A stretch of DNA of 64,000 bases from Clostridiales bacterium (GTDB taxonomy: Bacteria; Bacillota; Clostridia; Peptostreptococcales; Anaerovoracaceae), in NCBI GenBank assembly GCA_009776955.1, contig WRMW01000001.1, forward strand, positions 124,001 to 188,000, written 5' to 3'. This document shows positions 25,806-54,309 of the stretch, one piece after another (position 1 is the first letter of the stretch; each line of letters opens with the position of its first letter). The position numbers were made by a program, and so were the translations under genes. Under the pieces are notes generated by a model, which was given only the letters and a program-made list of their open reading frames with translations, did no database searches and was not told where the DNA came from.

Positions 25806-25947
25806 CCATTTTTCTCCTTCCATTCATCTGCTCCTTCCGGCTGATATTCTGAAAACCGGTTTCGAGCATAGCACGTAGCATTCTTCACCGCCAAAAAACT
25901 ACATTTTTTGTCCGCCATTTTCCCACATTTTCTCACCGCCGCTTACA

Positions 25948-29424: not shown

Positions 29425-30003
29425 ATGGCAGGAACCATAAAGGGTGTAAAAATGTTTACCAAGGCCTTGATGTATGTCACTTGTGCATCTACCTTGGCGT
29501 TGCTTTGCCTGACTGTGGGGAACGTGATAATGCGCTATGTGTTCCAGACCCCGTTTTCGGGCATCATGGAGTGGAGCCAGATGTTCCTAATCATATCCAT
29601 GACGTGCATGGCGCATGCTTTGGTGGAGGGGCGTTTTGTGGCTGTCGGGGCGTTTATCGACCGCCTTCCCAAGAAGGCTGACTTCGCCGTCGAGATCATA
29701 ATGGGAGCGGTGGCGATAGCGTACTTCACCATCATAGGCGTGCAGCTTCTTCTGCAGATCGCGCCTTCGATTCAGTTCAATGAGCTTTACTTCGTCATAA
29801 ACGTGCCGAGGTGGCCGATGTACTTGGTGCTTGGGATATCGTTCCTTGCCTGCGTGCCGGCTACGGTGGTCTATGTGATCGAGCGCATCAAGAACTACGT
29901 GCCTTTGAGCGAAAGGGGTATTTTGGACGACAATCCTGACCTCGCCATCCTGGCGCTTGTTGAAGGCGACGAAGAAGGCGAAGCGGAAGGAGGTGTGGCA
30001 TAA
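29425..30003 (+). CDS. dctQ: TRAP transporter small permease (DctQ), system 1
   Basis: 192 residues with four membrane segments. NVIMRYVFQTPFSGIMEWSQMFLI is the DctQ signature region. DctQ supports DctM in sodium-driven uptake of organic acids delivered by a periplasmic-type binding protein. AAAGGAG precedes the ATG, and the stop overlaps the dctM start (TAATG). The gene order here is Q-M-P; the binding protein follows after its own promoter. Confidence 0.93.
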   Translation: MAGTIKGVKMFTKALMYVTCASTLALLCLTVGNVIMRYVFQTPFSGIMEWSQMFLIISMTCMAHALVEGRFVAVGAFIDRLPKKADFAVEIIMGAVAIAYFTIIGVQLLLQIAPSIQFNELYFVINVPRWPMYLVLGISFLACVPATVVYVIERIKNYVPLSERGILDDNPDLAILALVEGDEEGEAEGGVA

Positions 30004-31298
30004 TGGCTCCAGAAACAATTGGTTTTATAGCTATCGGCATTTTGGTGTTGCTTATATTGCTGCGCGTATGGATAGGCGTGGCGATGGGCCTTGTGGGGTT
30101 TGTAGGCCTCGTCGTTATGCGCGGCACGGAGCAGGCTCTGCAATGGTCTGGCGATGCCATGTTTTCAAGCATCAATTCCTATACCATGACCGTCGTTCCT
30201 ATGTTTGCGCTGATGGGCATGATTATCTCCGAGTCCAATCTGGGGCGCGACCTTTTCAAGGCGTGCTATGCCCTGATAGGGTGGATAAGGGGCGGCCTTG
30301 CCGCCGCGACCATAGCCACGTCGGGTCTGCTCGGTGCCATATGCGGCTCGCATATGGTAGGCACGGTCATCATGTCCAAGATAGCCCTGCCGGAAATGAA
30401 GCGCTACAAGTATGACGAGTCTTTTGCCGCGGCCACGGTATGCGCCGGCGCGCCGCTTTCAATCATCATACCTCCGTCCCTGCCGCTTATAATGTACGGC
30501 ATACTGACGGAGCAGAGCGTAGGCAAGCTCTTTATGTCGGGCATCATACCGGGCGTCGCTATGATAGCCGTGTTCATAGCCATAGTGGTCATCATGTGTA
30601 CGCGAAAGCCCTCGCTTGGCCCCAAGGCCGATAAGATGACGCCGCGCGAGGTGGGAAAGGCATCGCTCGGCATCATCCCCGTCGTGATACTCTTTGTGGC
30701 GGTGCTAGGCGGCATATACACGGGCGTGTTCACCACGACGGAGTCCGGCGCCATAGGCAGCACGGGCGCCATCATCATCGCATTGGTATACAAGTCCCTT
30801 AACGGCAAGAAGTTCCTGCTTGCGTTGAAGGAGACGGCGATGGTCGTGGGCATGGTGTTCTCGCTGCTTCTCGGAACATACATATTTATCAGGTTCATCA
30901 CATATTCCAAGGTGCCGTTCGCGTTCTCGGATTTCTTGGTCGGGCTGGACGTGCCGCTGCCTGTGATGATGCTGGCGCTGGCGGTGATTTACATAGTGCT
31001 TGGCATGATAATACCCGAAATACCCATGCTGTTGCTTACAGTGCCCATCATCTATCCGGCACTTGTGGCGATAGGTTTCGACTCCATCTGGGTGGGCATA
31101 TACATAGTGCTTATGATGGCTCTGGGGGCGGTCACGCCGCCTATAGGTATGGTCGTGTTCATTGTGTCTGGGATGTCGAAGGTAAGCGCGCCCAAGCTGT
31201 TCAAGGCGGTGGTGCCGTTTATCGTCGGCGACCTTGTAGTGATAGGCCTGCTATGCGCGTTCCCGGCGATGGCGACATATATACCGTCGTTGATGTGA
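30003..31298 (+). CDS. dctM: TRAP transporter large permease (DctM), system 1
   Basis: 431 residues with about 12 hydrophobic segments. Typical DctM runs include MVPMFALMGMI-like VVPMFALMGMIISES, GAICGSHMVGTVIM, IIIPPSLPLIMYGILTE and LMMALGAVTPPIGM. It forms the transport channel with DctQ. Full family length. Confidence 0.95.
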   Translation: MAPETIGFIAIGILVLLILLRVWIGVAMGLVGFVGLVVMRGTEQALQWSGDAMFSSINSYTMTVVPMFALMGMIISESNLGRDLFKACYALIGWIRGGLAAATIATSGLLGAICGSHMVGTVIMSKIALPEMKRYKYDESFAAATVCAGAPLSIIIPPSLPLIMYGILTEQSVGKLFMSGIIPGVAMIAVFIAIVVIMCTRKPSLGPKADKMTPREVGKASLGIIPVVILFVAVLGGIYTGVFTTTESGAIGSTGAIIIALVYKSLNGKKFLLALKETAMVVGMVFSLLLGTYIFIRFITYSKVPFAFSDFLVGLDVPLPVMMLALAVIYIVLGMIIPEIPMLLLTVPIIYPALVAIGFDSIWVGIYIVLMMALGAVTPPIGMVVFIVSGMSKVSAPKLFKAVVPFIVGDLVVIGLLCAFPAMATYIPSLM

Positions 31299-31304
31299 CG
31301 GGTA

Positions 31305-31346
31305 TTGACAATGTTCCGATAAACTAATAGTATATACGATTAGTTT
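31305..31346 (+). promoter_or_regulatory. Internal promoter with inverted repeat before dctP (system 1)
   Basis: TTGACA (31305-31310), 17 bp, TAGTAT (31328-31333). AAACTAAT (31321-31328) and ATTAGTTT (31339-31346) are a perfect 8-bp inverted repeat spanning the -10, a possible operator. A separate promoter would allow the binding protein to be made in excess of the permease. Confidence 0.6.
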
Positions 31347-31398
31347 TGGAAATATAGTAAAAAAACTATAAATGGTAGAACCAAGGAGGAGACAAAAG

Positions 31399-32514
31399 AT
31401 GAAGAAAAAATTAATGTTGGTGCTTGCGGTGGTAGTCGCATTCACAATGGTGTTCGCTGCTTGCGGCAGCCCGGCGCCTGCGCCTGAGCCTGCACCCGCC
31501 CCGGCACCTGCCCCGGCGGCTCCAGCCCCAGAAGATCCGACCGATGACCGCACGTTTGACTGGGACATCAGCGTAACGCTTGGCGAGCCGGTTTCGCCGA
31601 GCTGGGCTAGGCTTTTCGAGCAACTTAGGGACGAGAGCGGCGGCAGGATTAACCCGACCGTGTTCTGGTCAGGTTCGCTTCTGCCCATTCCTGAGATTCC
31701 CAGGGGCATGGCGAGCGGCGCCGCGGCATTCTCGAATCTGCCCACGCCCAACTACCCTGACGCGCTTCCGCTGACCTGCCGCATTATGCAGCTGCCGTTC
31801 CTCGGCCTTGAGGAGCCGCTTGACAGCGCGCAGATTTACATGCAGCTTCTTTCGGAGTTCCCGGAAATGGTGGAGGAGCTTGCGAGCTTCAACATGGTCG
31901 CCATCGGCGCCACCCCGCTGGGTGTGTACGACATGCACTTCACCGACAAGAACCCTGTCCACCTTCCTGAAGACCTCAGAGGCAGGCAGATGGTTCCGTA
32001 CAATGTCGTGTTCCTGCCCCTGCTTGAAGCCAACGGCGTCGGCGTCAACTACATCGCCCCCGGCGAAATCTTTGAGGCGCTCAATAACAACGTCGTTGAT
32101 GGTTACATCAACAACTGGGCGTTCAAGGGCTGGTTCGGCCTTACCGACCTGATCAATCAGAGCGTCGCGTTCGGCCCCTACGGCATGTACACAGAGTTCA
32201 ACGTGCTTGTGGTCAACAAAGATATGTTCGAGGATATGCCCGCAGACCTGCAGCAGCTTGTCAGGGACACGTTCTGGAACAATGGCGGCTACAGGGATAT
32301 GTGGGGCGACACGATGGATATCGTCGTCAACCAGAGAGCCATAGCCGAAGACAAGGGCAACCTTATCACAGTCCTTACCGATGACGAAGTCGCAGTGTGG
32401 AGAGAGGCTCTGCTCCCGCAGCATAGGGTCGTCCTCGACGAGATCAATGCTCAGCGCGGCGACGACGTGGCTGACAGGATATACAACAGGCTGCTTGAGA
32501 TCCTTGGCCGGTAG
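31399..32514 (+). CDS. dctP: TRAP substrate-binding lipoprotein (DctP), system 1
   Basis: 371 residues. Lipoprotein signal ending VFAAC, then an Ala-Pro linker of about 20 residues that tethers the binding domain to the membrane. The DctP fold is recognisable in SGSLLPIPEIPRGMASGAA, ATPLGVYDMHF, LRGRQMVPYN and GYINNWAFKGWFGL. GGAGGAGA lies seven bases ahead of ATG 31399. It is closely similar to the orphan DctP at 53074 (same SGSLLPIPEIPRGMASGA and QHRVVLDEINAQRGD motifs) and quite different from the DctP at 40302. Confidence 0.93.
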   Translation: MKKKLMLVLAVVVAFTMVFAACGSPAPAPEPAPAPAPAPAAPAPEDPTDDRTFDWDISVTLGEPVSPSWARLFEQLRDESGGRINPTVFWSGSLLPIPEIPRGMASGAAAFSNLPTPNYPDALPLTCRIMQLPFLGLEEPLDSAQIYMQLLSEFPEMVEELASFNMVAIGATPLGVYDMHFTDKNPVHLPEDLRGRQMVPYNVVFLPLLEANGVGVNYIAPGEIFEALNNNVVDGYINNWAFKGWFGLTDLINQSVAFGPYGMYTEFNVLVVNKDMFEDMPADLQQLVRDTFWNNGGYRDMWGDTMDIVVNQRAIAEDKGNLITVLTDDEVAVWREALLPQHRVVLDEINAQRGDDVADRIYNRLLEILGR

Positions 32515-32573
32515 GCTTAGGTTCGGGTTCAGAGAGTAAGCTTGCGAGGTATTATGTAAACCATAGACCATAT

Positions 32574-32608
32574 CAGGGGCTGTCTTTTTAGGCAGTCCCT
32601 GAGTTTTA
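32574..32608 (+). terminator. Stem-loop after dctP (system 1)
   Basis: CAGGGGCTGTC (32574-32584) pairs over 11 positions, including two G-U, with GGCAGTCCCTG (32591-32601), followed by AGTTTTAT. It is probably a moderate terminator separating dctP from the hydrolase gene. Confidence 0.65.
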
Positions 32609-32655
32609 TAAGTTATAGTAATCAGAGTTTTTATAAGCAGAATAGGAGGTACTAA

Positions 32656-34344
32656 ATGTCTAAGTGTTCAGAACCAAAATATGGCGTGATAAAAGAAACT
32701 GTTATGGTGCCTGCGCGCGATGGCGTGGGGCTTGCGGTCGATATTTACAGGCCGGACACGGACGGCAAGTTTCCGGCGCTTCTGTCGCAGTCGCCGTACG
32801 GCAAGGACTGCCAGGTGTTCGAGTCGCCGCCACAGCCTTTCGGCAAGTCCATTTTTGAGGCTTCCGTTGAGTCGGGCGATCCGTACTGGTTTGCGAAGCG
32901 TGGGTACGCATTCGCGATCGCGGACTTCCGCGGGCTTGGCGACAGCGAAGGGTATCACGACGGCATGATGAGCTATAAGGAGCGTTGCGAAGATGGCTAC
33001 GATATATGCGAGTGGCTTGCGGCGCAGCCTTGGTGCGATGGGGGCGTCGGGGGCGCGGGGATATGTTACTTCGCAAACGCGCAATTGCAGTTGGCGGCGT
33101 CGCAGCCTCCGTCGCTTAAGTGCATAGCGCCCTGGGAAATCTACGGCGACGATTTGTACAAGCATGGGCAGTACGAGGGCGGTGTGCTGAATATCTTCCT
33201 GTACGGCCTGTATACGGGCACGTATCCGGCACGCTGCGGCTATGCCGTGACCGACAGGGTGCGCTCGGCGATGCAGTTGGCGTACGCAGACAAGCCGGAG
33301 GAGCTGGACAAGATGGTGAAGGAAGCGATGGCGGATCCCGATCTGCGTCAATACCCCTATCTCTACCATCTATTGAAGTATCCGACGAAGAACCCGATAC
33401 TCTTCGACTTTATGCTCAACCCGCTCGACGGGCCCTATTACCGCGAGCGTAGCGTTATCGAGCGTATCGGCGACATAAAGGTCCCGACCTATGTGGGCGG
33501 GCCGTTCTTCAGCTTCTTTTCGGAGCCGCAGATAAACGTCTACAACAGGCTTTCCAAGGATGTGCCCAAGAAGCTGCGGTTCTACACGGATATGGGCGTG
33601 CGTCCGTGGTACACCGACCATGACGAGCTTCTGCGTTGGTACGACTATTGGCTAAAGGGCATCGAGACTGGCATAATGGACGAGGAGCCGGTCCGCTACA
33701 GCGTGACGGGTCTCAACAAGTGGCGTACAGCCAAGGAGTTCCCGATCGAGAACATGGAGTACAAGCCGTTCTACCTGAACAGCCTGGAGCAGCTGAAGCC
33801 TGAGCCGGAGCTTTACAACGACGAGCCGGACAGCTTTGTGCAGGCGCCGCTGTTCGTGACAGAGGAGCGGGCAAGGATTATTTATGTGTCGCCGCCGCTG
33901 CACGAGCCGCTGCAATGCACGGGCGCGCCGCGCATAAAGTTCTATGCGTCCATCGACCAAAAGGACACGAACTGGCGCGTGAACGTACGCACCTACGGGT
34001 CGGACGACATCTATCCCCTGGCGCAGGGCTGGCTCAAGGCCTCGCTTAGAAAGCGTGACTATGACCGCGACGTGCCGTGGGAGATAGAGCATGATTATAC
34101 GAAGTTCGACAACCCTACGCCTGGCGAGATTTACGAGTACGAGATACAGATGCGGCCGATGTCGCATATGTTCGACAAGGGCGACAGGATACAGCTGGAG
34201 ATAAGCTGCTTCGACGTCCCGACGGATATCGAGACCTACGACATCTACTGGCATGTCTGCTCGGCAAAGACGACGCTGCATAAGGTCTACCGCGACGCAG
34301 ACCACCATTCGGTGCTGATGCTGCCGGTGGTGCCGCTGGAGTAG
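32656..34344 (+). CDS. CocE/NonD-family hydrolase with Cys in the nucleophile position
   Basis: 562 residues. X-Pro dipeptidyl-peptidase/CocE architecture. The alpha/beta-hydrolase half includes VPARDGVGLAVDIYRP and DFRGLGDSEG, with a cap domain and the RWYDYWLKG segment. The C-terminal jelly-roll (IKFYASIDQKDTNWRV...HDYTKFDNPTPGEIYEYEI) is present. CocE-type enzymes hydrolyse esters or amides. The nucleophile elbow reads GGAGICYFAN, so C137 stands where family members and the paralogue at 54310 have Ser (GMAGNSGLAM). AATAGGAGG precedes the ATG. It follows a TRAP binding protein, as does the paralogue, suggesting hydrolysis of imported esters. Confidence 0.88.
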   Translation: MSKCSEPKYGVIKETVMVPARDGVGLAVDIYRPDTDGKFPALLSQSPYGKDCQVFESPPQPFGKSIFEASVESGDPYWFAKRGYAFAIADFRGLGDSEGYHDGMMSYKERCEDGYDICEWLAAQPWCDGGVGGAGICYFANAQLQLAASQPPSLKCIAPWEIYGDDLYKHGQYEGGVLNIFLYGLYTGTYPARCGYAVTDRVRSAMQLAYADKPEELDKMVKEAMADPDLRQYPYLYHLLKYPTKNPILFDFMLNPLDGPYYRERSVIERIGDIKVPTYVGGPFFSFFSEPQINVYNRLSKDVPKKLRFYTDMGVRPWYTDHDELLRWYDYWLKGIETGIMDEEPVRYSVTGLNKWRTAKEFPIENMEYKPFYLNSLEQLKPEPELYNDEPDSFVQAPLFVTEERARIIYVSPPLHEPLQCTGAPRIKFYASIDQKDTNWRVNVRTYGSDDIYPLAQGWLKASLRKRDYDRDVPWEIEHDYTKFDNPTPGEIYEYEIQMRPMSHMFDKGDRIQLEISCFDVPTDIETYDIYWHVCSAKTTLHKVYRDADHHSVLMLPVVPLE

Positions 34345-34396: not shown

Positions 34397-34433
34397 GTCG
34401 GCGCGGAAATGTCACGCGCCGACTGCATTTTTT
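34397..34433 (+). terminator. Intrinsic terminator after the first CocE-like gene
   Basis: GTCGGCGCG (34397-34405) and CGCGCCGAC (34415-34423) form a perfect 9-bp stem, followed by TGCATTTTTT. Confidence 0.88.
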
Positions 34434-34485: not shown

Positions 34486-34514
34486 TTGACACATTTTTTT
34501 GCTCTTGTTAAATT
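34486..34514 (+). promoter_or_regulatory. Probable promoter of the molybdopterin-enzyme operon
   Basis: TTGACA (34486-34491), 17 bp, TAAATT (34509-34514) within a very AT-rich stretch. It lies just after a terminator and about 120 bp upstream of the catalytic-subunit start, leaving a leader of roughly 115 bases. Confidence 0.6.
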
Positions 34515-34636: not shown

Positions 34637-37414
34637 ATGAGCATTGATGTAAAGGACAGACAAAAGACCTTCAAGGCCGCCAGTCTTATGGGGCCGAGGA
34701 GCGGCCTGCCTACCGTCGTCGATTCCGACGGCGAAAAAATCACCCGGATACGCCCTATGTATTATGAGGACTATGCAAATTGGGAAAGCCTGAACCCGTA
34801 TAAAATCATAGCCAAGGGAAAGGAGTTTACGCCGCCTAAGAAATCTCTTCCAGCCGTATACTATCTTTCGTATAAAAAGCGTGTCTATTCAAACAACCGC
34901 GTCAAATGGCCTCTCAAACGCGTCGACTGGAACCTGGAAGGCGAGCGCAACCCGCAAAACCGCGGCAAGTCCAAGTACGAGCGCATATCTTGGGACGAGG
35001 CGACGGACATCATCGCGAAGGAGACCATGCGCATAAAAGAAAAGTACGGCATGAGCGCCGTGCTCGCGGAAGCCGATATGCACGGCGAGGGCAAGCACGT
35101 AGCCCCGAGCCATGGGTGTATGAACCGTTTGCTTGCGCTTCTCGGCGGCTATACGGTGCAGATGAGGAACGAGGACAGTTGGGAAGGCTGGTATTGGGGC
35201 TCCAAGCATGTATGGGGCGGCGAGCCTGTCGGTCAGCCTCAGCCCTCGGGCAATGTCTGGCCTGATATAGCGAAGCATGCCGATACGCTTCTGTTCTGGG
35301 CCGCAGACCCTGAGGTGACAGCGGCCGGCTTCGAGGGCTATGTCCCGAGCAAGCTGTCATATTGGCTTCACAGCCTCGGCCAAAAGTTCATATTTATAGA
35401 CCCGGCACTCAACTTCACGGGTGTCAACCAAGCGGACAAGTGGATACCCGTCCTGCCAAATACGGATGCTGCTCTGGGGCTTGCCATATGCTATGTATGG
35501 CTGACCGAAGGCTGCTACGACAAGGAATATGTCAAGACGCACGTAGTCGGCGCGGAGCCGTTCTTCGACTATGTGCTAGGCAAGACGGAGGACGGGATTC
35601 CAAAGACGCCAAAATGGGCAAGCGAAAAGACCAGCGTTCCTAGCTACACGATCAAGGCGCTTGCGCGTCATTGGGCTAAGAATGTGACGAGCCTGACCAT
35701 CGGAAACGGCGGCCCGGGCATCAGAGGCCCCTACAGCCATGAACATTGCCGCATCCAGTCAATCCTGCTTTCGATGCAGGGCTTGGCAAAGCCAGGGCGG
35801 CATCTTGCGAAATGGCTCGAATGGGCTCTTATGTCGAAGGACTATGCCATGCCGTTCCAAGGCATTGAGGAAATGAATATACCGCACCGTGCGGAATTGG
35901 TAAGGCCTGCCGGAGCCTTGTTTGACGAGGACATGATAAAGGAGATGAACAAGCGCGGCATGTCCGATGTAGGCGCCATAGACGCAGAGGAGATGGTGCG
36001 GCGCCTCACGGAAAAAGACTTCGGCTTTGCGGAGGTCCTCTCGATGTCCGATGCACAAAAGAAAGTAGGGCGCCTTGTCGAAATCACGAACCCGATACCG
36101 ACCCCTCCCGCCCAGGCTGTTCCTAAGTGCATGGTGCATGACGCGATATTGAACGACGAGATTGAGTGGTACGGGCTGTACTCGTTCTGCGGCCCGGTGA
36201 AGGAACAATGGGACAAGTTCAAGTTCCCAGAGAAGAATTGTTCACGCATACACATGATATGGACGGATTCGCCATGCATGGTGACTTGTTGGAACGACGG
36301 CTACAATTTTGTGAAGGCGTTGCAGTCCGACGAAATCGAGTTTGTGGTCGCACAGCACCCTTGGCTCGAAAACGATTGTTACCTGGCGGATCTGATTCTG
36401 CCAGTTCAGACAAAATTTGAGATGGAGGACATATGCGACGATGCGACCAGCGGCGGCATCACTAGCGTATTCCATGAAATGGCCGCGTGTCCGCCAGTGG
36501 GCGAGTCGCTGAACGACTTCGACTGCGTGGCGGAAGTGGCGCGGAAGATAGGGCACGACATATATATGCGCTATACAGCGAATGAAACCACTTCGGCGGA
36601 CTGCGTCGACCTTTTCTGGCAGGGTTCGGGAGTGGCGCACCTTGATACAGAGGACAGCTTCAAAAACAAGGGGATTTTCTTTGTGCCTTGCAAACCTGAC
36701 ATGCAAGAGACGATTCCGCCTGGCTACAGGCCGTTTGCGGACGACCCGGAGAACAATCCTCTCAAAACGCCCACGGGGAAGCTCGAATTTACGTCCACGG
36801 GGCTACAGAAGCATTTCCCGGATGACAAGGAGCGCCCACCGTACCCGATATGGATAGAGAAGGGCGAGTTCCACGATGAGAGCCTGTCCTCCGAACGTGC
36901 GAAGGATTATCCGCTCCTGTGCATGTCCAACCATGGGCGTTGGCGGTTCCATGCCAACCTTGACGACATCACCTGGCATCGCGAGATCGAGACTATGAAG
37001 ATACGCGGGAAGGACGGCTACCAATACGAACCTGCCTGGCTCAATACGAAAACTGCGGCGGAGCTTGGCATACAGCACGGCGATATTGTCAAAGTCTACA
37101 ATGAGCGCGGCGTGGTGCTTTGCGGGGCTTATGTGACGGAAAGGGTCGTGCCGCAGACAGTCTATGTCGACCACGGGGCACGGTTCGACCCGATAGACCC
37201 CCTCTGGCTCGACAGGGGCGGCGCGGTCAACCTGATTACGCCGCACGCCATCAGCTCGAAGAACGCGACAGGCATGGTCGTCTCAGGCTTCCTTGTGGCG
37301 GTGGAGAAGGTCATGGACGAGGAAATGGGTGCCTGGATGAAAAAATACCCTGAAGCGTTTGCGCGCAAGGTAGACCCTGACTGCGGCGTCTGCCTGGACG
37401 GCTGGCTCGTTTGA
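34637..37414 (+). CDS. Molybdopterin enzyme, pyrogallol-phloroglucinol transhydroxylase-like large subunit
   Basis: 925 residues, DMSO-reductase superfamily. There is no N-terminal CxxC..C iron-sulfur motif and no Tat signal, so the subunit is probably cytosolic. Domain landmarks are YERISWDEATDIIAKE, the D180-S181-W182 triplet in NEDSWEGWYWG, H149 in DMHGEGK, FIDPALNFTGVNQADKW and a C-terminal MGD-binding domain (LLCMSNHGRWRFHANL ... GDIVKVYNERG). In Pelobacter acidigallici transhydroxylase, from memory, His144, Asp174, Ser175 (Mo ligand) and Trp176 occupy equivalent spots, and that subunit also lacks the Fe-S motif. Acetylene hydratases and catechol dehydroxylases are other relatives. Reaction and substrate are unproven. 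Confidence 0.85.
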   Translation: MSIDVKDRQKTFKAASLMGPRSGLPTVVDSDGEKITRIRPMYYEDYANWESLNPYKIIAKGKEFTPPKKSLPAVYYLSYKKRVYSNNRVKWPLKRVDWNLEGERNPQNRGKSKYERISWDEATDIIAKETMRIKEKYGMSAVLAEADMHGEGKHVAPSHGCMNRLLALLGGYTVQMRNEDSWEGWYWGSKHVWGGEPVGQPQPSGNVWPDIAKHADTLLFWAADPEVTAAGFEGYVPSKLSYWLHSLGQKFIFIDPALNFTGVNQADKWIPVLPNTDAALGLAICYVWLTEGCYDKEYVKTHVVGAEPFFDYVLGKTEDGIPKTPKWASEKTSVPSYTIKALARHWAKNVTSLTIGNGGPGIRGPYSHEHCRIQSILLSMQGLAKPGRHLAKWLEWALMSKDYAMPFQGIEEMNIPHRAELVRPAGALFDEDMIKEMNKRGMSDVGAIDAEEMVRRLTEKDFGFAEVLSMSDAQKKVGRLVEITNPIPTPPAQAVPKCMVHDAILNDEIEWYGLYSFCGPVKEQWDKFKFPEKNCSRIHMIWTDSPCMVTCWNDGYNFVKALQSDEIEFVVAQHPWLENDCYLADLILPVQTKFEMEDICDDATSGGITSVFHEMAACPPVGESLNDFDCVAEVARKIGHDIYMRYTANETTSADCVDLFWQGSGVAHLDTEDSFKNKGIFFVPCKPDMQETIPPGYRPFADDPENNPLKTPTGKLEFTSTGLQKHFPDDKERPPYPIWIEKGEFHDESLSSERAKDYPLLCMSNHGRWRFHANLDDITWHREIETMKIRGKDGYQYEPAWLNTKTAAELGIQHGDIVKVYNERGVVLCGAYVTERVVPQTVYVDHGARFDPIDPLWLDRGGAVNLITPHAISSKNATGMVVSGFLVAVEKVMDEEMGAWMKKYPEAFARKVDPDCGVCLDGWLV

Positions 37415-37446
37415 CGGGCATAGCGTAGAGGAAAAGGAGAAACGAT

Positions 37447-38262
37447 ATGGCGAAGGCATTTGTGATAGACGTGGCGCTGTGCAGTGGATGCTATTGCTGC
37501 CAGGTCGCCTGCAAGGACGAACATTGCGGCAATGACTGGTCGCCGTATGCGAAGCCGCAGCCCGACACGGGGCAGTTTTGGCTCAAAATCTGCGAGAAGC
37601 CGGACGGGACCATACCGAAAGTAAGGGTCACCTACACCCCTAAGCTCTGTAACCATTGCGAGAGGCCGGCGTGTATCGCGGCTTGCGGCAAGGAAGCGAT
37701 AAAGAAGCGCGACGACGGGCTGGTGCTTATCGACCCTGAGATATGCACAGGCTGTGGCAAGTGCATGGATGCCTGCCCGTATGAAAGCATTTACAAAAAT
37801 GAGGACTCAAAGCTCTGCCAGAAGTGTACGGGCTGCGCCCACCTCCTGGACAGCGGGTACAATGAACCGAGGTGTACGGAGGTTTGCCCGACGGGCGCGT
37901 TCCAATTTGGCGACGAAAGCGAGCTTGCGGATTTGATCAAGGGCGCGGATGTCCTCAAGCCCGAGACGGGCATAGGCCCGAAGGTGTATTACCGCAATAT
38001 ACCAGGCCAGTTCATAGCCGGCACGCTCTTTGACCCCATAGAGGACGAGATAATAGAATACGCACGGGTGATGGCGGTATCGGGAGGCAAAATCATAAAT
38101 GTGCTGTCCGACGACTTCGGCGATTTTTGGCTACGAGACCTCGCAGTCGGCGCATGGGACATCACCATCACGAAGGAAGGGTACGAACACAAGCATTTTT
38201 ACAATTTGCGCACCGATGAGTGCGTGAATCTTGGCGATATAGCATTAGACAGGAAGGCATAG
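37447..38262 (+). CDS. Iron-sulfur subunit of the transhydroxylase-like enzyme
   Basis: 271 residues. Four ferredoxin-type cysteine sets: C12/C15/C18/C22 (VALCSGCYCCQVACKDEHC region), CNHCERPACIAAC, CTGCGKCMDACP and CQKCTGCAHLL with a later CTEVCP. After about residue 175 comes a small beta-sandwich domain (IAGTLFDP ... GAWDITITKEGYEHKHFYNLRTD) of the transthyretin/CnaB kind. The Pelobacter transhydroxylase beta subunit ends in the same sort of domain but, as I recall, has only three clusters. Four clusters imply a full electron wire, so a net redox reaction is possible. Starts 33 bp after the large subunit with AAAAGGAG. Confidence 0.88.
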   Translation: MAKAFVIDVALCSGCYCCQVACKDEHCGNDWSPYAKPQPDTGQFWLKICEKPDGTIPKVRVTYTPKLCNHCERPACIAACGKEAIKKRDDGLVLIDPEICTGCGKCMDACPYESIYKNEDSKLCQKCTGCAHLLDSGYNEPRCTEVCPTGAFQFGDESELADLIKGADVLKPETGIGPKVYYRNIPGQFIAGTLFDPIEDEIIEYARVMAVSGGKIINVLSDDFGDFWLRDLAVGAWDITITKEGYEHKHFYNLRTDECVNLGDIALDRKA

Positions 38263-38307
38263 GCTGGTTTGCAACTTGCAGATGATGAAAAACCGAAAGG
38301 AGTCGTT

Positions 38308-38916
38308 ATGGGCGAGGATAAAGACATGGCAGTGGCTGTAGCCGCAGACGAAGAAGCCGTAGTGGACGAGGATGAAATAAATCCGAGGTTTGAATACTAT
38401 CCGGGGGTGTTTCTGACGCCCCGCGTAAAGGAAGTGCCCATATACGAAAATGTGGCGGCGAGGGTGGCGTCTTGGTCAAGCTGGATCTCAATGGGGGCTA
38501 TAATATTCCTGCTTGGCATGACCTTCCTCGATGTAATCCTGCGCGCTTTGTTTTCTGCGCCATTTCCCGGCACCTATGACTGGACTCGTTACCTTATGGT
38601 GCTGATTGCTTCGTTCGGCATGCCGCTCTGCACGATGAACGACGAGCACGTCTGCATAGACTTTCTTGTGCGTAGGCTGCCCGACCGGATACAGACGGGG
38701 CTTGCGTGGTTTGGTTACGCCTTGGCGGTCTTGGTGCTGAGCATCTATGTATCCCAAAGCTGGGAGCAGGGCACGTTCAATGCATCGATAGGGCAGACGA
38801 GCGTCGGGGTGCCGTGGCCGACATACCCGTTCTTCTATTTCATATCGATAGGCTTTGCCTGTATGCTCGGGATAGTGGTGGTCAAAATGATAAACCTCGG
38901 AAGGGGGGTGAAGTAG
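38308..38916 (+). CDS. dctQ: TRAP transporter small permease (DctQ), system 2
   Basis: 202 residues. An unusual acidic N-terminal tail of about 50 residues (VAVAADEEAVVDEDEINPRFEYY) precedes four membrane segments with FLDVILRALFSAPFPGTYDWTRYLMV. AAAGGAG lies ahead of ATG 38308, 46 bp after the Fe-S subunit, so this transporter is probably co-transcribed with the molybdopterin enzyme and imports its substrate. Confidence 0.9.
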   Translation: MGEDKDMAVAVAADEEAVVDEDEINPRFEYYPGVFLTPRVKEVPIYENVAARVASWSSWISMGAIIFLLGMTFLDVILRALFSAPFPGTYDWTRYLMVLIASFGMPLCTMNDEHVCIDFLVRRLPDRIQTGLAWFGYALAVLVLSIYVSQSWEQGTFNASIGQTSVGVPWPTYPFFYFISIGFACMLGIVVVKMINLGRGVK

Positions 38917-40221
38917 ATGGAGCCTGTAACACTCGGTCTGATCCTTATAGCGCTGCTCCTTGTCCTTCTCTTTCTGAAGGTCTGGCTTGGCGTCGCGATG
39001 GCGTTCACAGGGCTTGTCGGCATCGCCCTGCTCACGGATTTCGATATGGCGCGCAAAATGGTCGGGATCGAGCCTTTCGCACAGATGCTGCAATACACGT
39101 TCTCTGCCGTGCCGCTCTTTATATTGATGGGCATAATAATCTCAAACACGGGCATGGGCAGGAACCTTTTCGACATGGCAGCGAAGTTTGTCGGCCAGGT
39201 CCGAGGGGGGCTTGCGATAGCGACCGTCGGCGCCTGCGCGGTGTTCTCTGCCGTCTGCGGCTCTTCCATGGCTACAGCGGTGACCATGGGGAAGGTCGCC
39301 TTCCCGGAGATGAAAAGGCACAATTATGACGAGTCGATGGCGATTGGCGCCATTGCGGCGGGAGGGTCCATAGGGATCATGATACCGCCGAGCCTTGCGT
39401 TCATACTTTATGGGCTTATCACGCAGGAATCCATAGGCAGGCTGTTTATGGCAGGCATCGTGCCCGGCGTGATGCAAGCCGTTTTTTATGCGATTCTTAT
39501 AACGATTATGTGCAAGTTCAACCCCAAGCTCGGCCCGGCGGCGCCGCGTGCCACATGGAAGGAACGTGCGTCCTCGCTGCCACAGACCGTGCCCATAATC
39601 ATATTGATCATTCTCGTGCTCGGCGGGATATATGGCGGCGTTTTCACAGCCACGGAGGCGGGTGCCATAGGGGCGTGCTGCGCCATCATCATCGCCCTTG
39701 CTTTCCGCAAGCTCACGAAGAAGGGCTTTGTAGGATCGATACGCGAGGCGGCTTCGACAACGGGCATGATACTCATACTCATCGTCGGCGCATATGTGTT
39801 TATGCGGTTCCTGACCTTGTCCGGGCTCCCATCGGTGCTGAGCGGCTTTGCGAACAGCCTGCAGGACAGGCGCTGGGTAGTGCTTATCTTCATCATCGTG
39901 CTCTACCTCGGACTCGGTTGCATCATGGACATCTACAGCGTAATAGTGCTGACGCTGCCAATCACTTACCCACTGATGAAAGCGCTCGGGTACGACATGA
40001 TTTGGTATGGGGTGCTACTTGTGAAGCTGATTGAGCTTGGCGAGATAACGCCGCCGGTCGGCATCAATACATATGTTTTGGCAAGAACGTGCAAGGTGAG
40101 GCCGGAAACCGCGTTCAAAGGCATCATACCGTTTATCATATCGGATTTGGTGATTGTTGCGATCATCTGCATCTGGCCTGAATTGCCGATGCTTTTGGTG
40201 AACACCTCGCAAGCAGGATAG
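38917..40221 (+). CDS. dctM: TRAP transporter large permease (DctM), system 2
   Basis: 434 residues with about 12 hydrophobic segments and DctM hallmarks: VPLFILMGIIISNTGMG, VCGSSMATAVTMGKVAFPEM, GGSIGIMIPPSLAFILYG, GEITPPVGINTYV. Begins directly after the dctQ stop with AAGGGGGTG as ribosome-binding site. Confidence 0.95.
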   Translation: MEPVTLGLILIALLLVLLFLKVWLGVAMAFTGLVGIALLTDFDMARKMVGIEPFAQMLQYTFSAVPLFILMGIIISNTGMGRNLFDMAAKFVGQVRGGLAIATVGACAVFSAVCGSSMATAVTMGKVAFPEMKRHNYDESMAIGAIAAGGSIGIMIPPSLAFILYGLITQESIGRLFMAGIVPGVMQAVFYAILITIMCKFNPKLGPAAPRATWKERASSLPQTVPIIILIILVLGGIYGGVFTATEAGAIGACCAIIIALAFRKLTKKGFVGSIREAASTTGMILILIVGAYVFMRFLTLSGLPSVLSGFANSLQDRRWVVLIFIIVLYLGLGCIMDIYSVIVLTLPITYPLMKALGYDMIWYGVLLVKLIELGEITPPVGINTYVLARTCKVRPETAFKGIIPFIISDLVIVAIICIWPELPMLLVNTSQAG

Positions 40222-40301: not shown

Positions 40302-41561
40302 ATGATAAGGAAGAGGAAAAAATTAGCTATCGTAATCGCGCTGGTGTTGGTGTTCACCTTTGTCTTGGGTGCGTGCAGCACCCCTGCGCCAGCAGAGCCT
40401 GCCCCTGCGCCCGCTCCCGCTGCCCCTGCCCCCGCCGCCCCTGATGCAAGCGGCGATGCGGTGCGTGCGGACTATCCGCGCGAGGGCACGTCTGTCCGCG
40501 ACGGAGACCCCGAATCCCAAGGCGCGCCGCTGTCGCCGGATCCAATCATAGTCCCCGTGCCGGCAGGCCACGAGGATTCGCAGTGGAACCTTTCGGCGAA
40601 TGAGCAGGGCTTCCCGGACATGCCCATGTTGAAGTTTGCACGTGATGCCTTTGAGCATATCAAGGTGCGTACGAACGGGCAGGTCGATATCACGCTTTAT
40701 GATTCGAGCACGCTCGTCCCATTTGAAGCCCAGTTTGCATCCGTGTCGCAGGGCATCTGTGATATCACCGTCTATCTGGCGAACTTCCAAGAAGGCACGC
40801 AGCCGATTGCGGATATGTTCCAGATTCCGCCTACGACGGAAAGCCATGACACTCAGACGATGACAAAGATTTACCGCAACTTCGTGTTCGGCAATGATGT
40901 ATTCTTCCAGGAGAACGCCAAGGCGAACGTGGAGTGGCTCTCGGTCTGGGCGTTCGCGCCGAACATCATCTCGACGGTCAACACCCCGATCCGCTCTGTG
41001 GAGGATGTGAGGGGACAGACGCTCATCACCTCGAACCTCCAGGTCCCGTATCTGCAGGCCATGGGCGGCACAGGCGTGGTTCAGGGCATTGCGGACTATT
41101 ATACCTCGCTTGAAAGAGGCGTTGCGGGCGGCATCATCACGCATATCCCGATCACCCACGAGTTCAGGATGACCGATGTGCTCGGCTACCATACCTTTAT
41201 GGGCGACAGCGTATATTCGGGCATCGGCTCACTGATGCAGGGCTATCTGATCAACAAGCCCGTATGGGATTCGATTCCGCCTGAGTACCAGGCAGTCGTC
41301 AGGGAAGAGCTTTGGTGGGCGGCGGATGCGCAGGCATACAACAACGACAACATGATTCAGACTGGCGTCAAGTACATGGAAGAGATTGGCAATGAACTTA
41401 TCTTCCTGCCGCCCGATGAAGCCCAGAAGTTCTTTGACGCAGCGGATGTCTGCTATCAGAACTGGCTTGCACAGGCGACGAGCTCAGGCGGCCTTTCCGA
41501 GGCGGAAGCGGTAGATCTGTACGAGAGATTTATACGGGCGATACAGAACAAGGAGATGTAG
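40302..41561 (+). CDS. dctP: TRAP substrate-binding lipoprotein (DctP), system 2
   Basis: 419 residues. Lipobox VLGAC, then an Ala/Pro linker (EPAPAPAPAAPAPAAP) and an extra acidic segment of about 50 residues before the DctP domain. Recognisable parts are RTNGQVDITLYDSSTLVPF, TVNTPIRSVEDVRGQTLITSN and INKPVWDSIPPEYQAVVREE. It is only distantly related to the other two DctP proteins here, implying a different ligand. TAGGAGG precedes the ATG. Confidence 0.92.
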   Translation: MIRKRKKLAIVIALVLVFTFVLGACSTPAPAEPAPAPAPAAPAPAAPDASGDAVRADYPREGTSVRDGDPESQGAPLSPDPIIVPVPAGHEDSQWNLSANEQGFPDMPMLKFARDAFEHIKVRTNGQVDITLYDSSTLVPFEAQFASVSQGICDITVYLANFQEGTQPIADMFQIPPTTESHDTQTMTKIYRNFVFGNDVFFQENAKANVEWLSVWAFAPNIISTVNTPIRSVEDVRGQTLITSNLQVPYLQAMGGTGVVQGIADYYTSLERGVAGGIITHIPITHEFRMTDVLGYHTFMGDSVYSGIGSLMQGYLINKPVWDSIPPEYQAVVREELWWAADAQAYNNDNMIQTGVKYMEEIGNELIFLPPDEAQKFFDAADVCYQNWLAQATSSGGLSEAEAVDLYERFIRAIQNKEM

Positions 41562-41677: not shown

Positions 41678-42814
41678 GTGAAATATAGAAAACTTGGAAC
41701 GAGCGATTTTGACATTTCGATACTTTCCGCGGAATTGCTCGGGCTTGATTTTGTCGCAGACGGGCTTAAGCGGGAAGATTTTGACGAGCAAATCGAGGCA
41801 GTGCGGTATGCGTTTGGGGAGGGCGTCAATGCGCTCAATCTCGGGCTTCCGTTCTACCTCGACGAGCCGGAAAGATATACGGGCAAGATAAAGGCACTTC
41901 TTGCTGAGGATGGCGTCAAAGGCAAGGTGAGGCTTTTTGCCAATATGTCGATGACGGGCGACCTCACGATTGCAGACCTCGACAACAGGCTCGGCCTTTT
42001 GCATGAATGGTTTGGCGTTGAGTGCTTCGATTATTGCCTTGTCGAAGACATCGACCGTTTCGCATGGAAGCGAGTGGAGCAGCTTGGCGTGGTCGATTGG
42101 GTGAAAGGGCAGGTGAAGGCGGGCCGCGTCAGGGAGTTCGGGTTTGACTTCAGGGACGATTGCTTTTTCTTGAAGAACATCTTTGACGCATACGAATGGG
42201 GGGTGGCGCAGTTTCGCTACAGCTTCATGGACAGCACCCTTCACCCTGGCTTTTCCGGAATCGAGTATGTGGTGAACGCGAAGGCGGGCTTGGTCACGAC
42301 GGAGCCGTTCAAGACGCGAAGGCTTTTGGCCAATATACCCGAAGCTGCACAGGAGCTTTGGGGCGGCGGCCGCGTACAGCGCGATGCCGAGGAGTGGGCG
42401 CTGCTTTGGGTGTGGAATCATCCGGAGATATCGTCGGTGTTCACCTCTTTTGAAAACAAGGACGAGGCAAAGCGGTTTATTGAATATGCAGACCGCCAGG
42501 AGCCTATTGTGATGCTTGATGAAATAGCGATAAACAAGGTGATAGATGTCTACAAAAAGAAACGTGTGTTCGCGTGTACGGAATGCCGGTGCTGTATGCC
42601 ATGTCCGATAGACATGGACTCTCCGGGCATAGCGGCGCTGTACAACGACTATCTTATGTACGGCAACGCAGACGTGCCACGTTTCCTTTACGGCATTCGC
42701 GGATTTGACAAGATAGAATGCAAGGCCTGTGGGGTATGCTCAAAACACTGTCCCAGAAAGTACAAGTTGATGGACGTTGTGCAGGAAGCCCAGGCTTTGT
42801 TTGGAAATTCATAA
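41678..42814 (+). CDS. Aldo/keto reductase with C-terminal 4Fe-4S ferredoxin domain
   Basis: 378 residues. N-terminal KYRKLGTSDFDISIL is the AKR start, followed by a TIM-barrel; the usual catalytic pattern is weakly conserved. Residues from about 300 contain CTECRCCMPCPIDM and CKACGVCSKHCP, two 4Fe-4S motifs. Proteins of this layout use NAD(P)H or ferredoxin and occur in anaerobes. It could pass electrons to or from the molybdopterin enzyme or reduce a ring ketone; this is inference. GTG start with AGGAGA. Confidence 0.85.
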   Translation: MKYRKLGTSDFDISILSAELLGLDFVADGLKREDFDEQIEAVRYAFGEGVNALNLGLPFYLDEPERYTGKIKALLAEDGVKGKVRLFANMSMTGDLTIADLDNRLGLLHEWFGVECFDYCLVEDIDRFAWKRVEQLGVVDWVKGQVKAGRVREFGFDFRDDCFFLKNIFDAYEWGVAQFRYSFMDSTLHPGFSGIEYVVNAKAGLVTTEPFKTRRLLANIPEAAQELWGGGRVQRDAEEWALLWVWNHPEISSVFTSFENKDEAKRFIEYADRQEPIVMLDEIAINKVIDVYKKKRVFACTECRCCMPCPIDMDSPGIAALYNDYLMYGNADVPRFLYGIRGFDKIECKACGVCSKHCPRKYKLMDVVQEAQALFGNS

Positions 42815-42848: not shown

Positions 42849-43862
42849 ATGAAACCGCACGAAAAGTACAAACATTTAGTAAAGGAATTTGAATTTAGGA
42901 ACGGCCCCGAAGGGCTGTATCCAGAGCAATTGTTCTGGATGGAAGGCTCAAAGCATATGGAAGGCTTCAACGCCTGCTTCTCGTTTATGTATGTCAAGGC
43001 TCCGCAGACTTTCCACCCGATGGAAGGGGCACTTGTACACCCCTATGACGAGCTGCTCGTCTTTGAGACGCTGAACAAGGACGATATATTGTCGTTCGAT
43101 GCCGAGATTTCGGTAGAGATAGGCGATGGCGACGACCGTGAGATACATACTTTTACGGAACCGTCTGTTGTGTTGATTCCGAAAGGCACGGTACACGGGC
43201 CTGTACGAGTCAAGAGGGTCGGGTCGCCCATCGTCCACTACACCATCAGCCTTGCAAGCGACTACAAGGCCGAGGCGGTCGTGCCGACAGGCGAGGCAAA
43301 GACGGGCGGCACAAAGTACAAGGCGAATATCGCAAAGATGACAGGCAACCTCGAAAGCCGGATGAAGGAGATATCGCAGGACGAAGGCTCCGGCATGGGC
43401 TACGAAGAGGTGATGGACGAGCGTGGCGTCCTCAGGCCGGCCGAGCGCGGCATAGGCCCAGGCAACGCCACCGAATGCGTCTGGCTCTACGGCGAGGACC
43501 TTCTGGGCTTTGATGTCAATTTCACTTGGGGCATATATGGCAATGTCGGCAAATGGCATGTGGGCGGCGAAGTCCATACGCACCCCGAGGAAGAGATACT
43601 TATCTGTGTCGGCTGGGATCCTGACAATCCCATGAACCTCGGCGCAGAGGTAGAGATGGGGCTTGGGCCGGAAGTGGATATGTATGTGCTCAACAAGCCC
43701 GGCCTTTATATAGCGCCTAAAGGCTTCCCGCACCTGCCTATGTTTACACGGTGGTGCGACGCCTCGGCGTTTGGCTTTATGGTAGTCTGCCTTGACGGGC
43801 ATCATGGCTCGCCATGGGTGGAGATGGACTTGGATGCGTATGAGGCATCCGGGCAATGGTAG
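42849..43862 (+). CDS. Bicupin protein 1
   Basis: 337 residues. Two cupin-like halves: the first with HPYDELLVFE and PKGTVHGP, the second with HTHPEEEILICVGW and PKGFPHLP. The histidines and glutamates in these motifs could bind one metal per domain. Function unknown; anaerobic context argues against a dioxygenase and favours an isomerase or lyase. GGAGTC precedes ATG 42849. A paralogue follows 29 bp downstream. Confidence 0.75.
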   Translation: MKPHEKYKHLVKEFEFRNGPEGLYPEQLFWMEGSKHMEGFNACFSFMYVKAPQTFHPMEGALVHPYDELLVFETLNKDDILSFDAEISVEIGDGDDREIHTFTEPSVVLIPKGTVHGPVRVKRVGSPIVHYTISLASDYKAEAVVPTGEAKTGGTKYKANIAKMTGNLESRMKEISQDEGSGMGYEEVMDERGVLRPAERGIGPGNATECVWLYGEDLLGFDVNFTWGIYGNVGKWHVGGEVHTHPEEEILICVGWDPDNPMNLGAEVEMGLGPEVDMYVLNKPGLYIAPKGFPHLPMFTRWCDASAFGFMVVCLDGHHGSPWVEMDLDAYEASGQW

Positions 43863-43891: not shown

Positions 43892-44914
43892 ATGAGACCT
43901 AAACTGCACAAACACCTCGTAAAGCCGCTGGCTTGGAGAGAAGGCCCCAAGGGGCTGTTCGCGTCACCGCTGTTTTGGATGGAAGGGGCAAAGGACATGG
44001 AAGGCTTCCAAGGGTCGTTTGCCTATGGATTTGTAAAAGAGAACGGGAAGCTGATGCCGCAGGACGGGCATTTGATCCATCCGTTCGACACGGTGCTATG
44101 CTTTGTCGGAACGACGCATGGGGATATCCTCGACCTCGGGGCCACTGTGTCCGTCGAGATCGGCGAGGAGCGCGAAGTCTATACCTTTGACCAGAGCCAA
44201 GTAGTCGCCATACCCAAGGGCACGCAATATGGCAACGTCACAGTGAGCAATTTCAAAAAATCGTTCGCTTTTTATCCCATATACCTTGCGCCAGAGTATT
44301 CGGCAATCGAGATTCCATCGTCCGAATTGAAAGACCCTGTACCTGGCACGAAGTACAAGGGCTATGCTAGGCTATACGCATGGGCTGTCGACCCGGATAC
44401 GGGCGAGGTGCAGCATGACGGCGGCGCAATAGACTACGACGGCAGCGGCATGGGCTATACGAAGCTTACTGACGACCGCGGCGTTATGCACCCGCTTCAG
44501 AACGCGGGGCCTGGCGGCATGGGGCCAGGCAACGCAGATGAATTGATATGGGTGTTCGGCGACCAATTGCAAGGCTTTGAGCTGAATACGCTCTGGGGCC
44601 ATTATACTGGCTGCGGCATATGGCATAGGGGCGGCGAGGCGCATACCCATCCAAATGAGGAAGTCCTCATTTATGTAGGCATGGACGCTGACGACCCCTT
44701 GAACATGGGCGCTGAGATAGAGACTGCCCTTGGCGAGGAAGACGAGCGTTATTACATGAACGTTCCATCCGTGTGGATTTGCCCGAAGAACTTTTTCCAT
44801 CTGCCTTCCATCACGCGATGGGTGCAGAGGCCTTATGGGTTCATGGTCATAAATCTTGACGGCACGCACTCCTCGCCGTGGCAGGACAAAGACGGTGAGC
44901 GCATAGAGAGCTAA
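43892..44914 (+). CDS. Bicupin protein 2
   Basis: 340 residues and a clear paralogue of the preceding gene (shared LVKPLAWREGPKGLFASPLFWMEGAKDMEGF pattern, WHRGGEAHTHPNEEVLIYVG, GSGMGY). The first-domain motif reads HPFDTVLCFVG, so the acidic ligand E is missing there, while the second domain keeps HTHPNEEVLIY. A two-gene bicupin unit suggests a heteromeric enzyme or one active and one structural partner. GGAAAGGA precedes the ATG. Confidence 0.75.
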   Translation: MRPKLHKHLVKPLAWREGPKGLFASPLFWMEGAKDMEGFQGSFAYGFVKENGKLMPQDGHLIHPFDTVLCFVGTTHGDILDLGATVSVEIGEEREVYTFDQSQVVAIPKGTQYGNVTVSNFKKSFAFYPIYLAPEYSAIEIPSSELKDPVPGTKYKGYARLYAWAVDPDTGEVQHDGGAIDYDGSGMGYTKLTDDRGVMHPLQNAGPGGMGPGNADELIWVFGDQLQGFELNTLWGHYTGCGIWHRGGEAHTHPNEEVLIYVGMDADDPLNMGAEIETALGEEDERYYMNVPSVWICPKNFFHLPSITRWVQRPYGFMVINLDGTHSSPWQDKDGERIES

Positions 44915-44940: not shown

Positions 44941-45390
44941 ATGGCAAAACCTATGACGAGAGAAGCGTTCCAGAGATATCTGGACTACTTCAACAGGCAG
45001 GATTTCGATGGGATACTGAGCCATTTTGCGGACGATTGTGTGTTGCACTACATGACCGATTGGACGCGTGAGCCGCAAGAATATGCAACTTTGACCGGCA
45101 AGGACGCTTTTAAGGCGAATTATACGAATATGTATGAAAACTTCCATGAGCGGCTGCGCCTCGGCGTATATATGTCGACTGAGGACACGATTTTTGTGGA
45201 GCTCTTCACTTCCTTCACTGCTAGGAAAGACGTCACATTCCGTGCAGGGACGCTGAAAGAGGGCGAGACCTTTTACTGCAATCAATACATAGACTACGAC
45301 GTAGATGCTGAGGGCAAGTTCACGCGCATCCGCATAGCGCAATTTGATTCCCAGGACTACCCCGATGAGCGTTACTATGATATTGTGTAA
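44941..45390 (+). CDS. NTF2/SnoaL-like protein 1
   Basis: 149 residues with the cone-shaped alpha+beta pattern of the SnoaL/NTF2 fold: REAFQRYLDYFNRQDFDGILSHFADDCVLHYMTDW at the start and YDVDAEGKFTRIRIAQFD at the end. Such proteins can be cyclases, isomerases or dehydratases, or non-enzymatic. AAAGGAG precedes the ATG; 26 bp after bicupin 2, so likely the same operon. Confidence 0.7.
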   Translation: MAKPMTREAFQRYLDYFNRQDFDGILSHFADDCVLHYMTDWTREPQEYATLTGKDAFKANYTNMYENFHERLRLGVYMSTEDTIFVELFTSFTARKDVTFRAGTLKEGETFYCNQYIDYDVDAEGKFTRIRIAQFDSQDYPDERYYDIV

Positions 45391-45412: not shown

Positions 45413-45844
45413 ATGACAAGAGAAGATTTTTTAGTCTACATGGACCATTTCAACAACATGCGCTATGACGAGCTTGTGAAGTATTTTACGGATGACATCC
45501 AGGTGAAGTATTTTACGGACATGAAGCGAGGCGCGCCGCGCGGTGACATAGCTGACGGGCCTGCGGCTTTTGTCGCGAACTACAAGCAGCTGCATTCTAC
45601 GCTTATCGAGAAGCTGGAATTGGGCAAGTATGTCGCTACCGATGAGAACATCTTTTGCGAGCTTTGGACGGAATTTCATTTCACGAAGGACAATCCGGAC
45701 TTTTCGGCCGGCCCCATGAAAAAGGGCGATGTCTTTGTGTGCACGAATTTCGTCCTGTATTTCCTCGACGAGAACGGGAAGTTCAAGGAGATACATATAG
45801 CTCACCACTTGGTCCACCCGCCGTCGGAAGCCCGCTTGGCGTGA
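45413..45844 (+). CDS. NTF2/SnoaL-like protein 2
   Basis: 143 residues and a paralogue of the preceding protein (REDFLVYMDHFNNMRYDELVKYFTDDIQVKYFTDM; ENGKFKEIHIAHH). AAAGGAGAG precedes the ATG, 22 bp after the first copy. The shared YFNxxxxDxxxxxFxDD opening and KFxxIxIA end show recent or maintained duplication. The pair may act together on an intermediate of the pathway; no catalytic residues can be assigned. Confidence 0.7.
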   Translation: MTREDFLVYMDHFNNMRYDELVKYFTDDIQVKYFTDMKRGAPRGDIADGPAAFVANYKQLHSTLIEKLELGKYVATDENIFCELWTEFHFTKDNPDFSAGPMKKGDVFVCTNFVLYFLDENGKFKEIHIAHHLVHPPSEARLA

Positions 45845-45863
45845 TCCGGCGGCATTGAGCGAT

Positions 45864-51210: not shown

Positions 51211-51285
51211 TTTTACAATAATAGGAAATTTTACAAGCAGAGAGATGGGTTTTACGAGCAGGGCAGCAAGGAGCGAGAGAATAGC

Positions 51286-52257: not shown

Positions 52258-52280
52258 TAATGGGGGGCGCGGAGGCTGTA

Positions 52281-54204: not shown

Positions 54205-54241
54205 TTTTTGTTTCGTGAAACGATAGTTTGTCAATTCAATG

Positions 54242-54263
54242 GGGGTTGCTTTCCGGCAACCCC
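54242..54263 (+). terminator. Stem-loop after the third dctP
   Basis: GGGGTTGC (54242-54249) pairs with GCAACCCC (54256-54263), followed by a short T-rich tail (TATTTG). Probably a partial terminator or mRNA-stabilising hairpin before the hydrolase gene. Confidence 0.6.
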
Positions 54264-54309
54264 TATTTGACTAAGTAAAACTGGTGGAAATCATTCAAAG
54301 GAGGGCGTG

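Follow-up and report, generated by a model that had tools for sequence, protein, structure and literature searches.

The 64,000-nucleotide stretch analyzed here (positions 124,001-188,000 of contig WRMW01000001.1, assembly GCA_009776955.1; hereafter, the window) carries two adjacent genes, A and B, which are real genes and, judged from their sequences, encode a soluble cytoplasmic two-subunit molybdenum enzyme with a bis-molybdopterin guanine dinucleotide (bis-MGD) cofactor and a predicted serine ligand to the metal. The evidence for its placement in a sister family of the tannin-degrading pyrogallol-phloroglucinol transhydroxylase (PGT) is strong. This family, designated W here, is large and apparently uncharacterized, and the chemistry expected of it is of a known kind. 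The window enzyme would probably act on ring hydroxyl groups of a substrate other than pyrogallol. PGTL denotes the PGT large subunit of Pelobacter acidigallici, and the two genes and the putative metal-site residues of A are located as follows.

34637-37414, + strand: gene A, large molybdenum-binding subunit of family W, sister of the PGT large subunit (open reading frame, Pfam, phmmer, alignment, tree, model)
37447-38262, + strand: gene B, 4Fe-4S electron subunit with four predicted clusters and a C-terminal transthyretin-like domain (open reading frame, Pfam, phmmer, alignment)
35081-35083, + strand: H149 of A, counterpart of PGTL H144 (alignment; invariant in 88 of 88 W proteins)
35174-35182, + strand: D180-S181-W182 of A, counterpart of PGTL D174-S175-W176, with S181 as the predicted molybdenum ligand (alignment)

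The open reading frame of A comprises 925 amino acids with the ribosome-binding site AAGGAG directly 5' of its start, and B, with 271 amino acids, has a ribosome-binding site of its own, AAAAGGAG. A first-pass annotation of this DNA, made from the letters alone, had described A as devoid of an N-terminal Fe-S motif and of a twin-arginine translocation (Tat) signal. Pfam, which detected only Molybdopterin and Molydop_binding plus AhtL-like_1st (26.3 bits, cut-off 27), found no N-terminal 4Fe-4S domain in A, and inspection of the N-terminus (MSIDVKDRQKTF) revealed no Tat signal, in agreement with that description. The bisC and DmsA profiles of NCBIfam matched A far under their cut-offs.

Relationship of family W to the transhydroxylase

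PGT (AthLS/PgtLS of P. acidigallici, structure 4v4c) is the closest solved relative of both subunits. In phmmer searches of the PDB, A matched the large subunit 4v4c_A with E=4.8e-126 (next match, 2.5e-60) at an identity to PGTL of 31-33%, and B matched 4v4c_B best (E=7e-45) and aligned with it throughout. The AlphaFold2 model of A (predicted local distance difference test [pLDDT], 83; predicted template modeling score [pTM], 0.88) retrieved 4v4c_A as the top Foldseek hit (E 7e-70), with 807 residues superposed at 2.3 Å; VIA-align Z scores placed TorA above PGT, which is expected as a reflection of the common fold. The window enzyme thus resembles PGT in its two-subunit cytoplasmic architecture, the missing N-terminal Fe-S domain, the putative serine ligand, the equivalents of His144, Asp174, and Trp176, and the transthyretin-like C-terminal domain of the small subunit.

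A tree was calculated from 80 named loci and relatives from whole genomes. It split into a PGT clade of 29 rows, which includes PGTL, and its sister clade W of 88 rows, which includes the window protein. The monophyly of W received a Shimodaira-Hasegawa-like approximate likelihood ratio test (SH-aLRT) value of 100 in a 126-row tree, and the split between W and PGT received bootstrap/SH-aLRT values of 100/100 in a 49-row tree under a mixture model, with A outside the clade that holds PGTL and with DmsA-like rows as the outgroup, likewise at 100/100. The new branch proposed by the first-pass annotation is therefore a separate clade, and A is transhydroxylase-like without falling inside a characterized clade with another substrate. 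W spans at least seven phyla, its rows stemming from Bacillota, Actinomycetota, Chloroflexota, Thermodesulfobacteriota, Pseudomonadota (loci L108, L109, and L120), Spirochaetota, SAR324, and one archaeal metagenome-assembled genome. The nearest rows to A are uncultured Clostridia, several of them from rumen or other gut samples according to their record titles; a search of viral contigs gave no match.

The gut catechol dehydroxylases (Dadh, Cadh, Hcdh, and Eadh1-3) share with the window enzyme and its family a bis-MGD cofactor, phenol hydroxyls as targets (proposed targets in the case of W), an Fe-S partner, and transporters of the major facilitator superfamily (MFS) often encoded nearby. Acetylene hydratase is the nearest relative of the clade that they form on their own (PMC7028382), and their separateness has also been reported elsewhere (PMC12771579). 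Membership of A in this group was rejected, since A is without an N-terminal 4Fe-4S domain and its phmmer match to acetylene hydratase reached only E=5e-11, versus 4.8e-126 for PGT.

Anaerobic carbon release from tannins and lignin monomers relies on few oxygen-free ways to move hydroxyl groups on the ring. This chemistry would be broadened by a second large family that has the same metal site, differs in its pocket, and occurs in gut and termite bacteria as well as in Chloroflexota, Desulfobacterales, Gordonibacter, and Sporomusa. Such a family would also correct surveys in which every relative is counted as a pyrogallol transhydroxylase. For example, the Chloroflexota genome RBG-1351 has been credited with two PGT operons (PMC3971608); Chloroflexi bacterium RBG_13_51_18 (L131) seems to represent that genome, and the enzyme found in it is of the W type.

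Several observations concern the PGT side of the tree. Proteobacterial plasmid forms from Burkholderia, Ensifer, Salipiger, and Cupriavidus (L159-L162) nest inside the PGT clade and are enzymes of about 992 to 997 amino acids that are extended at the N-terminus. Three of the plasmid records are annotated (L162 is not), and in these, VOC-family and fumarylacetoacetate-hydrolase genes lie near the PGT-type genes, which suggests that a transhydroxylase-like reaction precedes ring cleavage. A plasmid search for the resorcinol hydroxylase RehLS led to other groups, and a search across the order of a proteobacterium with a W gene yielded mostly PGT-like forms of about 1000 amino acids. Two further PGT-type large subunits (L009:6241-9342 and L059:6523-9630) have about 1033 amino acids and an N-terminal extension of about 140 to 160.

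Metal site, substrate pocket, and iron-sulfur clusters

The metal-site and pocket residues of PGTL in the crystal structure are H144, D174, S175, W354, Y404, F468, C557, and Y560, and these positions carry the expected letters in our alignment. H149, D180, S181, and W182 of A align with PGTL H144, D174, S175, and W176, the correspondence that the first-pass annotation had noted, and their equivalents are present in 88, 87, 88, and 80 of the 88 W proteins, respectively. The His, Asp, and Ser positions are likewise invariant or almost so in PGT. DMSO/TMAO (dimethyl sulfoxide/trimethylamine N-oxide) reductases such as DorA, TorA, and MtsZ resemble A in fold and serine ligand, whereas the His/Asp pair of PGT is missing from the DmsA-like outgroup in the alignment. 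DorA and TorA are not known to have a four-cluster partner subunit of the kind of B.

The pocket differs from that of PGT. Tyr404 occurs throughout the PGT clade (33/33) and in no W protein (0/88), the position of Tyr560 falls into a deletion in 88/88, and Trp354, Phe468, and Cys557 are not kept in W either; instead, two basic residues flanking the DSW motif, R177 and K190, occur in 88/88 W proteins and are nearly absent elsewhere. The alignment thus indicates that W and PGT probably have their metal chemistry in common and differ in the substrate pocket, which suggests that A acts on a different plant polyphenol. A carboxylated aromatic is perhaps the substrate class, because both the two invariant basic residues and the adjacent transporter of the tripartite ATP-independent periplasmic (TRAP) type would fit it.

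B contains 16 ligand-type cysteines (12, 15, 18, 22; 68, 71, 76, 80; 100, 103, 106, 110; and 127, 130, 143, 147), in line with the four complete 4Fe-4S motifs read earlier, and a CarboxypepD_reg (transthyretin-like) domain at residues 190-251. This domain had been regarded as a rare feature shared with PGT; it is indeed present, and all aligned small subunits of W and PGT have it, so that among these enzymes it is no rarity. The cluster missing in PGT corresponds to C80, C100, C103, and C106 of B. Of the 57 W small subunits, 29 have it complete, as does the DmsB-like outgroup; none of the 18 PGT small subunits does, and the Pelobacter subunit, with three clusters, is without it. The trait changes nine times on the tree. 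The fourth cluster is real and represents an ancestral DmsB-like state that was repeatedly lost, and since these losses occurred among close relatives, it would not be essential in W. With 24 W small subunits lacking it and 4 having a partial one, the idea that it defines the branch had to be rejected.

In NarH, the clusters are arranged in an order in which the distal FS4 serves as the electron exit. Residues 61-150 of B align with 177-266 of NarH (offset, 116), with the fourth cluster at the distal FS4 position. B would hence have a cluster at the electron-exit position that allows net redox chemistry. As the enzyme occurs in W with either four or three clusters, the family lends itself to a direct comparison of the exit cluster with net redox chemistry.

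Proposed role and competing explanations

The source assembly, that of a gut-type anaerobe (2.03 Mb, 91% complete), contains, about 50 kb from A and B, a true PGT (L008) that is 60% identical to PGTL and has a three-cluster small subunit, as well as a second PGT-type enzyme (L009). In addition, one cluster (L205) comprises genes for a CoA transferase (CtfAB), BKACE, a short-chain dehydrogenase/reductase (SDR), a cyclase, and a 3-hydroxyacyl-CoA dehydrogenase (3HCDH), the gene set by which Clostridium scatologenes has been shown to degrade phloroglucinol (PMC10470551). This genome is thus already equipped for pyrogallol, and A and B are probably not the enzyme for it. Together with the loss of Tyr404 and Tyr560 throughout W, this argues for another substrate, which the first-pass annotation had named as one option.

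The role most likely is the transfer, or the net addition or removal, of a hydroxyl group on some other aromatic compound with several hydroxyls and perhaps a carboxyl group. In such a mechanism, molybdenum would be bound by Ser181, and His149 and Asp180 would act on the polyhydroxylated ring as in PGT, so that a ring hydroxyl group could be added, removed, or moved. The substrate, an aromatic acid or another anionic polyphenol, would likely be imported by the adjacent TRAP transporter, and the product would probably enter the trihydroxybenzene/phloroglucinol pathway of the organism. B may carry electrons between molybdenum and the surface via its four clusters, with net redox chemistry involving an outside partner as an option. 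The reaction at the ring, the substrate class, the direction, and the link to the phloroglucinol pathway are all inferred. Extended to the whole family, one may tentatively picture W as widespread enzymes for the net hydroxylation or dehydroxylation of aromatic acids with several hydroxyls, connected to external electron carriers in anaerobes of gut, sediment, and soil from at least seven phyla and mis-annotated as PGT, an idea that we put forward with considerable doubt.

Several neighborhoods of W genes speak for this reading. A PGT gene lies within 8 kb in 10 of the 80 loci, among them the same-genus locus L078, whose W fragment is 75% identical to A. SDR genes were found near W genes at 12 loci, cyclase genes at 5, thiolase genes at 4, and MFS transporters at at least 16. 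At L069 and L070, methyltransferase genes of the UroD, corrinoid, and pterin-binding types accompany the W genes, resembling O-demethylation of methoxyaromatics, and at L071 the W genes are near corrinoid and pterin-binding genes.

Several points weigh against a ring-hydroxyl enzyme connected in this way. The model of A is poor at residues 180-201, which include the metal site, so that the earlier placement of S181 at the molybdenum is upheld by the alignment and left poorly defined by the structure. W neighborhoods vary widely between loci, and the gut genome of Gordonibacter sp. Marseille-P2775 (G460, L126) has six W large subunits and many other bis-MGD enzymes without any PGT, which means that W does not need PGT. 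The cupin/SnoaL/TRAP/aldo-keto reductase (AKR) module downstream of B also occurs in genome G009 without A and B and may therefore serve another step or substrate. The literature searched yielded no measured activity for any member of W.

Within the preferred reading, a net phenol hydroxylase or dehydroxylase that exchanges electrons with an external carrier through the fourth, distal cluster of B is conceivable, if still doubtful. B retains the exit cluster that no PGT small subunit has in complete form, and the loss of the pocket tyrosines might fit one phenol in the pocket rather than two; however, the cluster is wholly absent from 24 W small subunits, including that of the close relative L080 (A 67% identical), its repeated changes on the tree point the same way, and we identified no gene for a dedicated electron partner. 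We regard as rather unlikely a closed-cycle transhydroxylase that works like PGT on another pair of phenols and keeps the fourth cluster as a relic. The common metal-site residues, the W genes that adjoin PGT and phloroglucinol-pathway genes, and the repeated loss of the exit cluster would agree with it, whereas the lack of the pocket residues Tyr404 and Tyr560 from all W and the Gordonibacter genome would not. An example of such a pair is the conversion of hydroxyhydroquinone via 1,2,3,5-tetrahydroxybenzene to phloroglucinol reported for Pelobacter massiliensis (cited in PMC3971608).

It is possible, though unlikely, that W contains the resorcinol hydroxylase RehLS of Azoarcus anaerobius or its relatives and hence already has a characterized member. 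By description, RehLS is likewise a Ser-ligated cytoplasmic two-subunit aromatic hydroxylase, RehL and PgtL being placed together in the Ser-ligated RhL/PgtL family (PMC10100899), and Pseudomonadota do occur in W; the plasmid-borne group of Pseudomonadota nests in PGT, however, and RehL could equally fall there. An ordinary PGT isozyme for pyrogallol is very unlikely despite the overall similarity, the B subunit, and the metal-site residues, given the low identity of A to PGTL, its position outside that clade, the missing pocket residues, and the genome's own PGT. Least credible, to the point of being nearly negligible, is an S- or N-oxide reductase of the DMSO/TMAO type: it could be argued from the common superfamily, the bisC/DmsA profile matches far under their cut-offs, and the top VIA-align Z of TorA, but A has the His/Asp pair of PGT, the DmsA-like rows are the outgroup, the PDB matches favor PGT (E=4.8e-126 versus 2.5e-60), and the enzyme has neither a Tat signal nor a membrane anchor subunit in its operon.

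Operon and neighboring genes

The operon of A and B seems to run on with little spacing to position 48494, an extent based on spacing and strand.

34397-34432, + strand: hairpin followed by a T run, possible terminator of an upstream TRAP/CocE operon (read directly)
34486-34514, + strand: promoter-like site 5' of A, TTGACA-17-TAAATT (10/12 matches)
38269-38916, + strand: TRAP small membrane subunit DctQ (PF04290, E=8.5e-23)
38917-40221, + strand: TRAP large membrane subunit DctM (PF06808, E=1.2e-94)
40302-41561, + strand: TRAP solute-binding protein DctP (PF03480, E=4.5e-31)
41678-42814, + strand: AKR-like protein with a C-terminal 4Fe-4S domain (weak Aldo_ket_red, E=0.012; Fer4_9; homologue in L206)
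42849-43862, + strand: bicupin-fold protein 1 (45% identical to cupin 2; no Pfam match)
43892-44914, + strand: bicupin-fold protein 2 (model pLDDT 81; Foldseek best 2vqa/oxalate decarboxylases, E ~1e-14)
44941-45390, + strand: SnoaL-like protein 1 (PF12680, E=8e-10)
45413-45844, + strand: SnoaL-like protein 2 (PF12680, E=5e-4)
45855-47441, + strand: PucR-type regulator (HTH_30, E=4e-14; GGDEF_2)
47457-48494, + strand: UroD-family protein, possible methyltransferase (PF01208, E=4.6e-12; 82% identical homologue in the same-genus locus L066)

The hairpin, GTCGGCGCG-GAAATGTCA-CGCGCCGAC-TGCATTTTTT, was read directly, as its loop of 9 exceeds the limits of the hairpin scan. The promoter-like site is suggestive as the start signal of A; such sites showed a modest excess in the scan (21 observed versus 13.2 in shuffles). 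From the hairpin and this site, A and B seem to open their operon.

The tandem bicupins, also present in L206, have no Pfam match and lie within the TRAP/AKR/SnoaL module; they were found in 5 of 61 relatives, very weak matches included, and Foldseek gives for the cupins a fold match only, not a function. The operon is flanked by two more genes for TRAP solute-binding proteins, and after each of them comes a gene for a CocE/NonD-type hydrolase (29425-34344 and 53074-56079). The TRAP1 membrane subunits share 60-78% identity with the ones encoded next to the L008 PGT. Downstream, a LigB-like domain is fused to AMMECR1 (48578-50029). The following genes (50242-52907) encode E1 alpha and beta of the pyruvate dehydrogenase (PDH) type according to NCBIfam and a short E2 with lipoyl and E3-binding domains only, without an acyltransferase domain. 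A link of W to these PDH-like genes, by analogy to the benzoquinone-cleaving complex of the resorcinol pathway, was considered unsupported beyond proximity, the sole neighbor with such genes being the PGT-type locus L146. Upstream of the catabolic region, the window carries an IS21-type transposase and IstB helper pair (23812-25823).

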